From assembly GCF_000255295.1 (NCBI RefSeq), contig NC_017030.1, positions 186,001 through 250,000 on the forward strand: DNA of 64,000 nt. The letters run 5' to 3'. Every line of letters begins with the position of its first letter. The stretch's first letter is position 1. The DNA comes from Corallococcus coralloides DSM 2259 (GTDB taxonomy: Bacteria > Myxococcota > Myxococcia > Myxococcales > Myxococcaceae). The position numbers and the translations under genes are program-made. Of the stretch, positions 2,412 through 6,023 are shown piece by piece. The notes under the pieces are model-generated. The model saw nothing but the letters and a program-made list of their open reading frames with translations. It made no database searches and had not been told where the DNA came from.

Positions 2412-3152
2412 TCAGGAGGGGCGCGCCGCGTCCAGCAGTCCCTGCACCGCGCCCGTCACCTCGCGGTGCACCTTGAGCAGGGCCTCCCGGTCCGCCGCGT
2501 CGAAGCCTGGGGCCAGATGGGTTGTCAGTGGCTCTCCAATCCACTGGATCATCTTCACCGGGAAGGGCAGGGACAGCGGCCACAGGCCCGTGGCGCCTAC
2601 GCCCAGCCATAGCGGCAGCCTTCCGGGCATCCCCACGCGCTTGCCCCACGCGTAGCCGTCGTTCAGGCCCACGTATGCGTCGTCCATGCCGTGGCCGGCG
2701 ATGGGCACGATGGGCAGGCCGTAGCGCACGGCCAGCCGCAGGTAGCCCAGCCGCTCTCCCCAGTCCACGCGGTAGCGGTGCCGGAAGTCTCGGCAGCCCT
2801 CGCGCGTGCCTCCTGGCTGCACCAGGACGTGCTCGCCCTTCTTCACGGCTTCTGCCAGCAGGGGCCCATCGCTGGTGACGAAGCCCAGCCCGTCCGCCAC
2901 CTGCCGCATGCCGGGGATGCGGTCGAACGCGCCGTGCGCGATTCCGTGCGGCAGGTAGCCCAGCCGGTCGTGCAGCGTCACCGTGAGCATGCACAGGTCC
3001 ACCGCCAGGGGCCGCCCGTGGTAGCCCACCAGCAGCTTCGCTCCAGGGCGCAGGAGCGGCTCCAGGTTCACCACCTCGTAGCGGTGGTAGCGCTGGAGCA
3101 GGCGGAACGTCGTCAGCCACGCGGCACGCGCCGCCGTCGCCGTGACCGTCAC
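2412..3152 (-). CDS. lysophospholipid acyltransferase, MGAT/TMEM68-like
   Basis: About 246 aa. It probably transfers an acyl chain to a glycerolipid at the membrane. Two motifs support this: LLVGYHGRPLAVDLCML (the family HHG/HPxxxD block) and VLVQPGGTREGCRDF, which matches the PGGxRE block of the DGAT2/TMEM68-like branch rather than classic PlsC. The start is GTG 3152, overlapping the TGA of the ketosynthase gene (GTGA). In the same frame the sequence upstream is open but reads as ketosynthase DNA, so a longer start is rejected. It is the last gene of the patatin/FabH-like/acyltransferase run, which suggests lipid remodelling or synthesis of an unusual lipid. Confidence 0.75.
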   Translation of the reverse strand: MTVTATAARAAWLTTFRLLQRYHRYEVVNLEPLLRPGAKLLVGYHGRPLAVDLCMLTVTLHDRLGYLPHGIAHGAFDRIPGMRQVADGLGFVTSDGPLLAEAVKKGEHVLVQPGGTREGCRDFRHRYRVDWGERLGYLRLAVRYGLPIVPIAGHGMDDAYVGLNDGYAWGKRVGMPGRLPLWLGVGATGLWPLSLPFPVKMIQWIGEPLTTHLAPGFDAADREALLKVHREVTGAVQGLLDAARPS

Positions 3153-4117
3153 CCGCCCACCCGGTACAGCACCGCGCCGTGCGCCACGCCCGCGCCTACG
3201 CCCACCATCAATACGCGGTCCCCCGGCTTCACCGGCCGCGTGCGCCACAGCCGGTCCAACCCCGTGCCCAGCGACGCGGAGCCCACGCTGCCCACCGTGT
3301 CCACCACCGTGACGCTCTTCTGCTCCGGTACCTCCAATGCCTGGAGGATGGCCGCGAACATGCTCCCGTTCGGCTGGTGCGTGAGCACCCACTCCACGTC
3401 CGCCACCGTGAGCCCCGCGCCCTGGAGGACCGTCGATGCCGCGCGCTTCAGCGCTCCCAGCGCCACGCGCGTCATGTCGCGCGATGGGGTGAGGAAGCGC
3501 ATGCCCTCGCGCTGGCCCGTCTGGTGCGGGTTCTCCAGCACGACGTCCGGCGGCAGCGTGCCGTCGTTGCCGAACGCGGCCCCCAGCATGCCCTCGCCGG
3601 GCCGTGCCTCCCCCAGCACCACCGCCGCCGCCGCGTCACCCAGCACCAGGTAGGGACGTGGATCTTCCGGCCGCGTGGTGCGCGACAGCAGCTCCACCGA
3701 CACCACGCCCACCGGTCCCAGCCCCGTCGCCACCGAGCGCGCCGCCAGGTCGAACGCGCTCAGGAAACCCATGCACGCGTTGCCTACGTCCATCGCATCG
3801 CACGTGCCGGACAGCCCCAGCGCCGCCGCCACGCGGCTGCCATTGGCCGGCGTGGTGACGTCCCCGCCCATCGACGACACGAACAGGATTCGCCGGAGCG
3901 CCGTCGCTGGGAGCCCCGCCGCCTCCAGCGCGCCTCGCAGGGCCTGGGCTCCCAGGTCCGCGGCGCGCATCCCCGCTGGAGCGAAGTGCCGCGTGCGGAT
4001 GCCCGTCTTGCGTTCCACCTCCGCCGCGTCGCGGCCCACGCGTGCGCAGACCTCTTCCGTCGTCACGGCCGGACCGGGCAGCACGCTCGCGGTGCCGAGG
4101 ATGCGGACCGGAATCAT
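3149..4117 (-). CDS. 3-oxoacyl-ACP synthase III-like (FabH-type) thiolase-fold enzyme
   Basis: About 322 aa, the usual FabH length. FabH-type enzymes make a C-C bond between a primer acyl-CoA and an acyl-ACP. The nucleophile lies in DVGNACMGFLSA (Cys 115) and the catalytic His in VLTHQPNGSMF (His 247). The third residue, normally Asn in GNTSAAS, appears as GSVGSAS near residues 276-282, so the canonical Cys-His-Asn triad looks incomplete; this rests on alignment by eye. ATG 4117 is preceded by GGAGGGCCGC. The RBS and first codons are an exact copy of a segment 68 bp upstream, which forms a small ORF. It couples by GTGA to the acyltransferase gene. Confidence 0.8.
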   Translation of the reverse strand: MIPVRILGTASVLPGPAVTTEEVCARVGRDAAEVERKTGIRTRHFAPAGMRAADLGAQALRGALEAAGLPATALRRILFVSSMGGDVTTPANGSRVAAALGLSGTCDAMDVGNACMGFLSAFDLAARSVATGLGPVGVVSVELLSRTTRPEDPRPYLVLGDAAAAVVLGEARPGEGMLGAAFGNDGTLPPDVVLENPHQTGQREGMRFLTPSRDMTRVALGALKRAASTVLQGAGLTVADVEWVLTHQPNGSMFAAILQALEVPEQKSVTVVDTVGSVGSASLGTGLDRLWRTRPVKPGDRVLMVGVGAGVAHGAVLYRVGG

Positions 4118-4127
4118 GCGGCCCTCC
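4101..4127. repeat. 27-bp direct repeat, copy 1 (RBS and start of the FabH-like gene)
   Basis: Identical over 27 bases to 4169-4195. On the minus strand it reads GGAGGGCCGC followed by ATGATTCCGG and contains the ribosome binding site, start codon and first five codons of the ketosynthase gene. The 41 bases between the copies are not repeated here. Confidence 0.9.
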
Positions 4128-4185
4128 TGCTGCCGGACGGGCTTCCTCGCAAGAACTCCCGCGCATGGATGCGGACCGGAATCAT
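4114..4185 (-). CDS. 23-aa leader ORF between patatin and FabH-like genes, made by a junction duplication
   Basis: On the minus strand an ATG at 4185 with its own GGAGGG ribosome site opens a 23-codon frame. It begins MIPVRI, exactly as the ketosynthase does, and ends SRRAA followed by TGA, close to the patatin C-terminus GGRRAA. Its ATG overlaps the patatin stop and its stop overlaps the ketosynthase ATG, both as ATGA. The 27-bp repeat at each end explains this: the patatin/FabH gene junction exists twice. Translation would couple the flanking genes. Whether the peptide has a role of its own is unknown; it may only be a translational bridge. Confidence 0.55.
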   Translation of the reverse strand: MIPVRIHAREFLRGSPSGSRRAA

Positions 4186-4195
4186 GCGGCCCTCC
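4169..4195. repeat. 27-bp direct repeat, copy 2 (end of patatin gene, start of leader ORF)
   Basis: Exact copy of 4101-4127, 68 bp away. It carries the last codons of the patatin gene (ending RRAA) and the ribosome site and start of the 23-codon leader ORF. Confidence 0.9.
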
Positions 4196-6023
4196 GGCCA
4201 CCGGCAGTGTTCCGGCGCCCTCGCAGCGCCTCCCAGGCTTGCTTGAGCTCCAGCAGCTTCTGCTCCAGGCCCATGTCGCGCGCGGCCTCGTCCAGCACCT
4301 CGTCCACGTGCGTGAAGCGCATGGATCCGAGCAACGGATGCTCACGCGTGCCCACGTCGTAGCGCAGGTCCCCTCGCGCGGACTCCAGGTCGCCGCTGCG
4401 ATGCAGGAGCAGCACTCCGCTGGCCAGCAGGTCCTTGGCTCGCGCCACCGGGTTGAGCGCGGAGAGGAACAGCCCCACGGCTCCGGGCAACAGGGGCCGT
4501 GCGGCGTGGTGATGGCCCGCGGGGAAGATGTTGCTGGAGAAGATCAGGTCCGCGCCCGAGTGGAGCAGCACGTCCACCGGCACCATGCTGGTGAAGGCCC
4601 CGTCCACGTAGCGCGCGGGCGGCTGCAACGTGGGTGCCCAGACGCCCGGCGCCGAGCCACTCGCGCGCACCGCCAGCGCCAGCGGTCCCTTCTCCAGCAC
4701 CACGCAGCGGCCCGTGGTCAGGTCCGTCGTCACCGGCAGGAAGCCCATGGGCAACTCCTCCAGCGCCAGGTCCCCCAGGTCGCCGCGCACCAGCCACTCC
4801 ATGGCCTGCGTCGTCACGACGGAAGACAGCGCCGCCGCGGACAGGTGCCCGCCCCGGGCCCGGTGCTGGAGCCGGCGCAGGCCGTCCAGACCTTCACGTC
4901 CGTCGCGCGCGGTGCCGCAGTAGTACGCGCCCACCAGCGAGCCCATGCTCGCGCTGCTGAGGAAGTCCACCGGCACGTCCAGCGCGGCGAGCCTCCGCAA
5001 CAGGTGCACGTGGTAGAAGCCCCACACGCCGCCTCCGCTGAGCGCCAACCCCACGCGCCGGCCGGTGATGGCGCGTGCCCACCGTGACAGCGCGTCTCGC
5101 GTCCCCGCGTCCAGCCCCAGCGCCGCCAGCGGCCGCGAGTCCCCGGGCCGCACCACCAGCCGCTCCCAGTCCAGCCGCAGCCGGCACCCGGGCGGCGGCG
5201 CCTCTTCGTCCCATCCGTCCTCGTCCGGCAGCGAGCGCCCCCGCAGCGTCGGGCTGCCCTGCGGCCGCCATGGAGACAGCAACACCGTGGGAAGCACCGG
5301 CGCTCCCGGCCTCCCCAGGCCGTCCGCCTCTCCACCCAGCGGCACGAGCCGCACCTCCCGCGGCGTCAGCGACTCCGGCACCGGCACGCCATCCACCAGC
5401 ACGCAGTCGAAGTCCTCACCCTCGGGGAGGAGCGGCGCGCCTGGCGTCACCGTGCGGCGGAACACGCGGTCGGCTCCGCGCACCGCGCCCTCCGTGCGCT
5501 TCGTCCCCGCGCGCACGAGCAGCACCCGGTCCCCGAAGTCGTGGACCATCACCTTCGCCACCAGCTCCACCAGCACGGACAGCGTCGCGGGCGGCAGCTC
5601 CAACCCCTGCTGCGCGCGGAACGTCACCACGTCCGTGCGCGGCGCCGCGCCGACGCGGGGCGCCACCGCCACCGCCTCCAGCTCCGCGCGAGGCAGGAAG
5701 AGGGCATGCGACGCGGACGCCGCTGTCACCGTGACGGGCCACGTGCCGCGCGCGAGCGCCTCCACGCCCAGCGACATCCCCGAGCGCAGGTGCAGGAGCA
5801 CCGTCCCTCCCGCCGTCATCCGCCACTCGCCGGAGCGCAGGAGGTAGATGCCGTCCACCGGCTCGCCCTCGCGGCAGATGCCCTCGCCCGGCTGGGGTTC
5901 CACCGGCCGGGCCCGCTCCAGCAGGTGGAGCAGGGCGGACGCACGCGCGTGGCGCAGCACGGGGGCTTGCTTCAACGTGTACAGCCACCGACGCCGCTCA
6001 TCGACAGTCAGGGGAGAAGCCAT
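4182..6023 (-). CDS. patatin-like phospholipase with N-terminal cyclic-nucleotide-binding domain
   Basis: About 613 aa. The first 110 residues look like a cNMP-binding beta-barrel (PGEGICREGEPVDGIYLLRSGEW, LGVEALARGTWPVTVTAASASHALFL). A middle segment of about 200 residues is unassigned. The C-terminal half is patatin: oxyanion loop LALSGGGVWGFYHVH, nucleophile elbow SSASMGSLVGAYY, and the Asp of VDGAF. The elbow reads S-x-S-x-G, so the usual first Gly is Ser. This is the NTE/RssA-like architecture, a lipase or lysophospholipase regulated by ligand binding. ATG 6023 has only a weak GAG ribosome site. It is separated from the RND pump by 89 bp containing hairpins, and couples downstream to the leader ORF. 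Confidence 0.85.
   Translation of the reverse strand: MASPLTVDERRRWLYTLKQAPVLRHARASALLHLLERARPVEPQPGEGICREGEPVDGIYLLRSGEWRMTAGGTVLLHLRSGMSLGVEALARGTWPVTVTAASASHALFLPRAELEAVAVAPRVGAAPRTDVVTFRAQQGLELPPATLSVLVELVAKVMVHDFGDRVLLVRAGTKRTEGAVRGADRVFRRTVTPGAPLLPEGEDFDCVLVDGVPVPESLTPREVRLVPLGGEADGLGRPGAPVLPTVLLSPWRPQGSPTLRGRSLPDEDGWDEEAPPPGCRLRLDWERLVVRPGDSRPLAALGLDAGTRDALSRWARAITGRRVGLALSGGGVWGFYHVHLLRRLAALDVPVDFLSSASMGSLVGAYYCGTARDGREGLDGLRRLQHRARGGHLSAAALSSVVTTQAMEWLVRGDLGDLALEELPMGFLPVTTDLTTGRCVVLEKGPLALAVRASGSAPGVWAPTLQPPARYVDGAFTSMVPVDVLLHSGADLIFSSNIFPAGHHHAARPLLPGAVGLFLSALNPVARAKDLLASGVLLLHRSGDLESARGDLRYDVGTREHPLLGSMRFTHVDEVLDEAARDMGLEQKLLELKQAWEALRGRRNTAGGRRAA

Follow-up and report, generated by a model that had tools for sequence, protein, structure and literature searches.

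Termination-reinitiation coupling at overlapping gene pairs (ATGA or TGATG) with Shine-Dalgarno (SD) motifs has been established in E. coli and H. volcanii, according to the accessible part of PMC6728339. A related arrangement is found in the mycobacterial interspersed repetitive units (MIRUs), which, as described in the portion of PMC12548453 that was available, contain a small ORF whose 4-nt overlap with the following gene couples the two, and whose insertion costs little expression. Here we describe a junction between two lipid genes of a soil bacterium, Corallococcus, at which a 23-codon mini-ORF stands between a patatin-like phospholipase gene and a FabH-like ketosynthase gene, overlapping both. 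The reading that we consider probable is that a single tandem duplication of about 74 bp took place in an ancestor shared by two Corallococcus species, that the resulting relay was kept in one of them (the window genome, G000), that translation reads into the downstream gene in the other (its sister species, G006), and that the peptide is a by-product.

Anatomy of the junction

The window is a stretch of 64,000 nucleotides from Corallococcus coralloides DSM 2259. The patatin gene, the mini-ORF, the FabH-like gene and an acyltransferase-like gene all lie on its minus strand, with the following features:
4182..6023, minus strand: upstream gene, cNMP-binding and patatin-like phospholipase (Pfam PF00027, 3.6e-10; PF01734, 7.3e-21)
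4184-4182, minus strand: patatin stop TGA, read from the sequence
4167..4195, minus strand: repeat copy 1, with the patatin stop, an RBS-like GGAGG and the mini-ORF ATG (29-bp exact repeat)
4114..4185, minus strand: mini-ORF of 23 codons, 6 from the FabH-like head and 17 derived from the patatin tail, with an ATGA overlap with both neighbours
4128..4167, minus strand: 40-bp spacer, a second, diverged copy of the patatin tail from which about 6 bp are missing, as judged by its score against relatives' tails
4099..4127, minus strand: repeat copy 2, with the mini-ORF stop, the RBS AGGAGG and the FabH-like ATG (29-bp exact repeat; anti-SD duplex)
3149..4117, minus strand: downstream gene, FabH-like ketosynthase of 322 aa (PF08541, 5.3e-23; PF08545, 6.1e-12)
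2412..3152, minus strand: next gene, acyltransferase-like, GTG start (PF01553, 1.4e-4, just below the curated cut-off)

The mini-ORF begins with the ATG at 4185, within an ATGA that also contains the patatin stop, and ends with the TGA at 4116-4114, within a second ATGA that contains the FabH-like ATG at 4117; both ends, with an SD motif upstream of the overlap, have the anatomy of a 4-bp-overlap gene pair. The predicted product has 23 aa, MIPVRIHAREFLRGSPSGSRRAA. The first-pass annotation had recognized this frame and its two overlaps, and had described two copies of an exact repeat, 68 bp apart, covering the stop of the patatin gene together with the RBS and start of the FabH-like one. Reading of the sequence bears this out, including the start-to-start distance, except that the length it gave for the repeat, 27 bp, is a small undercount: the copies are identical over 29 bp (plus strand 4099-4127 and 4167-4195) and match at 92% over 38 bp. 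The RBS is intact in both copies. With the anti-SD sequence, the duplex energy for copy 1 is -10.0 kcal/mol in both G000 and G006, slightly weaker than that for copy 2 (-10.8 and -12.8 kcal/mol, respectively).

Further downstream, a GTGA at 3149-3152 (minus strand) joins the FabH-like stop to the acyltransferase-like start, which makes this an operon with serial 4-bp overlaps. The FabH-like protein matches PRK09352 with an E-value of 8e-52, yet below the curated cut-off of that model. It keeps the Cys (GNACMG) and the His (HQPNG), and has the motif GSVGSAS, in G006 as well, in which a Ser occupies the place of the triad Asn of FabH/OleA proteins; its function may differ from that of FabH. On the plus strand, a gene coding for an HTH and IrrE/ImmA-like peptidase protein (724-1896; PF06114, 7.8e-12; PF13560, 6.2e-10) overlaps by 4 bp with a 171-aa frame (1893-2408), for which Pfam gives no match at E 0.01. 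Together, the two (724-2408) look like a toxin-antitoxin-style or regulator unit.

A chance origin of the repeat was ruled out by a Markov-1 simulation, in which one run of 464 kb gave no exact direct repeats of at least 15 bp at a spacing of 28-300 bp. Exact direct repeats of at least 27 bp do occur in G000, with 4 in the window and the next 400 kb (including the one at the junction) and 10 in another 400 kb; by their sequences, several of the others appear to be members of a single palindromic repeat family or parts of repetitive coding sequence. One array of tandem palindrome-bearing units (CCTGTCCGACTGTCGGACAGG-like), spaced at 71 and 142 bp, was observed at L116:15100-15750 (approximately 5,315,100-5,315,750 in G000). 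It includes one exact pair of 101 bp, its motif is also found at other sites in the 864 kb sampled, and it is possibly a REP-like family. A simple assembly artefact would not account for the junction repeat, since the window genome is one contig and the genome of G006, independently assembled and also one contig, has an insert at the same place. RNA structure was rejected as a selected feature, as local folding is ordinary: for positions 4080-4260 of the minus strand, z is -0.36 and 79 of 200 shuffled sequences are as stable or more so.

Distribution and origin of the duplicated unit

The locus was found in all 16 Corallococcus genomes of the genus set. In 14 of them there is a single 4-bp-overlap junction, as indicated by the query splitting into two overlapping pieces, and two start sites are present only in G000 and G006. 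A single junction is also found at 21 of 21 named Myxococcaceae loci, where the start overlaps the TGA and the upstream frame is open for 624 to 774 codons. This count refers to L031-L051 out of 34 loci, drawn partly from the same genomes and overlapping with the genus set, and includes L046, which is labelled Comamonas and groups with Myxococcus-like loci; L052-L064 are more distant and lie outside it. Among those, L052-L055 have no such conserved junction sequence. An old conserved minigene is thereby ruled out by the single junctions in the genus and at the Myxococcaceae loci.

The spacer links the insert to the upstream gene. In G000, its mean local score is 28.9 when compared with the patatin tails of the 14 congeners that have one junction, while 2000 shuffles reach 15.5 +/- 2.1 (maximum 26.7) and none matches as well; in G006, the spacer scores 54 against the patatin tail of the same genome (shuffle mean 19.5; 0 of 2000). 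The G000 spacer matches neither its own tail (P 0.18) nor the G006 spacer (P 0.23) better than shuffles do. Its link to the patatin tail runs via relatives without the duplication, and it seems to be closer to the ancestral tail than to the current one. These scores argue that the 40-bp spacer is a diverged, homologous copy of the patatin tail, which would mean that approximately 74 bp were duplicated in tandem: 19 patatin tail codons, the stop/start and 6 FabH codons. When all units were modelled, the best one for G000 was 74 bp with 10 of the 14 relatives, and 60, 60, 62 and 73 bp, with other left ends, with the remaining four. For G006 it was 66 bp with all 14 and no later gap. As in a tandem duplication, the insert is a copy of adjoining sequence and is missing from the outgroups.

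A unit that starts in the patatin frame and ends six FabH codons on in phase yields a hybrid mini-ORF. Modelling of the 74-bp duplication in the 14 relatives gives, in every case, a 25-codon ORF whose stop lies over the next start, and in which 6 codons from the FabH head are followed by 19 from the patatin end, up to the copied patatin stop. The window peptide, MIPVRI-HAREFLRGSPSGSRRAA, aligns with the modelled VIPVRI-QAWESLRVRRTPSGGRRAA of one relative (G011) and is shorter by two codons. G006 is in another phase: from its upstream start, the frame runs through VMPVGLDGTARAPEHGQRKEGR and on to MIPVRILG without a stop, a 22-residue extension of FabH; the minigene is therefore not conserved, nor is the peptide common to that species.

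These comparisons qualify the proposal of the first-pass annotation that a tandem event had produced a new minigene. A recent duplication across the overlapping junction is upheld, with a unit of about 74 bp that reaches beyond the exact repeat and of which the spacer is the diverged rest. It also predates the window species, being present in the sister species as well. "New minigene" is too strong a term, as G006 has no such separate minigene. The comparison of the junction in relatives, which the annotation had suggested, revealed no instance of the same minigene with diverged repeats among the other genus genomes and the 21 Myxococcaceae loci.

A probable single event and its predicted products

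The favoured course of events can be reconstructed as follows. A tandem copy of about 74 bp spanning the patatin/FabH-like overlap would have arisen in the common ancestor of G000 and G006, most likely in a single event, giving a mini-ORF with a FabH head and a patatin tail that ended at the copied patatin stop atop the copied FabH start. In the G000 lineage, the unit would later have shrunk from 74 to 68 bp through an in-frame loss of about 6 bp, with the relay kept; the G006 lineage would have lost about 8 bp. The upstream start of G006, in another phase, reads into FabH. We infer both the single event and the order of these changes.

The main alternative, which we regard as unlikely although it fares best among those considered, is that a slippage-prone junction was duplicated twice independently, by 68-74 bp in the window species and by 66 bp in G006. 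It would agree with the gapless fit of 66 bp in G006 and the preference of G000 for 74 bp with most relatives, and the repeat, exact over 29 bp in G000 and matching at 20 of 30 positions in G006, suggests different ages. On the other hand, the carriers are sister species, and none of the other 14 genus genomes has a duplication. In a tree built from this locus alone, G000 and G006 group with an SH-like support of 0.998 (FastTree, 16 taxa, 2903 columns), or 1.000 with 99 of 100 bootstraps when L012 is left out (15 taxa), and G010, without the duplication, is the next branch. (L012, from G015, shows odd divergence outside the core, with about 76% identity to G000 and a long branch, maybe due to a contig join or rearrangement.) The distance between the two species is dS 0.19 and dN 0.021 for the FabH-like gene (321 codons), and dS 0.16 and dN 0.024 for the patatin gene (610 codons). 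Two events are also at odds with the left ends, which agree within one base (offset 0 or 1) for the 10 of 14 relatives that give 74 bp in G000, and with the start codon at copy 2, which is ATG in both carriers and GTG in 13 of the 14 congeners (TTG in one). This change of the FabH start codon may be tied to the duplication. Copy 1 starts with ATG in G000 and GTG in G006. Less easily reconciled with the favoured course is that 29 bp are identical between the G000 copies and the adjoining 40 bp strongly changed, despite a dS of 0.16-0.19 between the species; this uneven pattern would be accounted for if copy 2 had converted copy 1 in the G000 lineage, with chance as the alternative.

The mini-ORF most likely acts passively, as a relay in termination-reinitiation by which FabH would stay coupled. 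A ribosome finishing patatin would restart at the mini-ORF, translate 23 aa, terminate at the copied ATGA and restart on FabH. A peptide under selection, for instance one tuning the FabH-like enzyme or the patatin, would be in keeping with the intact start, stop and RBS, the unchanged 29-bp repeat and the frame-preserving loss of 6 bp. We nevertheless judge it improbable, as a loss that keeps the frame is expected in one third of cases by chance, the patatin-derived part has many residue-changing codons, the 23-aa peptide has no Pfam match, and G006 has no separate minigene. Nor does the distribution resemble that of a conserved small protein, the frame being missing from 14 of the 16 genus genomes and not common to G006. 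The peptide is most likely a by-product without a function of its own.

It is more doubtful still that the mini-ORF is irrelevant because FabH starts further upstream in its frame: this is open back to 4345 and contains a GTG at 4201, but the start codon at the overlap is kept at all 21 named Myxococcaceae loci, and AGGAGG precedes it in G000. Least credible of all is the insertion of a MIRU-like dispersed mobile repeat, which would have the same geometry, a small ORF coupled at a 4-bp overlap (as far as the accessible text of PMC12548453 describes it), whereas the spacer is copied patatin tail, and at up to 3 mismatches the spacer core and the repeat are confined to this locus (1 and 2 sites in G000, 0 and 1 in G006). 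A dispersed element was rejected on these counts; the plasmid relatives gave no match.

Phase of the copied seam and comparison with known systems

The two species suggest that the same duplicated seam can give either a relay mini-ORF or an extended N-terminus. We tentatively put forward a phase rule, which may well not hold, under which duplicated stop/start junctions would be a built-in source of coupled mini-cistrons. With a unit of 2 mod 3, the copied start would read the copied tail and stop on the next start, as in the relay of G000; with 0 mod 3, it would read into the downstream gene, as in the extension of G006; and only 1 mod 3 would lead into a random frame. Two thirds of lengths would then keep the downstream gene coupled, and operon seams could for that reason be places where hybrid small proteins are born and tolerated, with the two sister species as a natural experiment in which one event had both outcomes. 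The reach of this is one locus in two species, read at the level of sequence. With its informative outgroups, the locus appears to illustrate the birth of a coupled small ORF within an operon, assembled from pieces of both flanking genes and with expression not obviously disrupted. It also calls for caution in annotation, where a 23-codon frame of this kind is the scar of a duplication and no evidence for a gene.

No report of a minigene born from a duplicated stop/start junction was found in the literature searched, which lay mostly outside subscription journals, and the accessible part of PMC11188072 contains no such case. The one paper in that literature to mention both Corallococcus and ribosome profiling is a Streptomyces review. 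The components have counterparts. Like the ATGA/TGATG gene pairs treated in the available part of PMC6728339, the junction combines stop/start overlap with an internal SD motif, but here two overlaps follow each other in series with a 23-codon relay between them. Like the ribosome-delivering uORFs in the portion of PMC12548453 at hand, the mini-ORF is short and its stop falls on the start of a longer gene; in contrast to these, it is itself predicted to be coupled to an upstream gene and is built from pieces of both neighbours. With MIRUs, as far as the same text covers them, it shares the anatomy of a short intercistronic ORF with a 4-nt overlap to the following gene, although MIRUs are dispersed and apparently mobile, while the mini-ORF is a single local tandem copy of the host junction, present once per genome. 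By its anatomy, it would thus work like a MIRU and yet not be one: a coupled mini-ORF made from the junction itself, an evolutionary accident with precedent in known systems.
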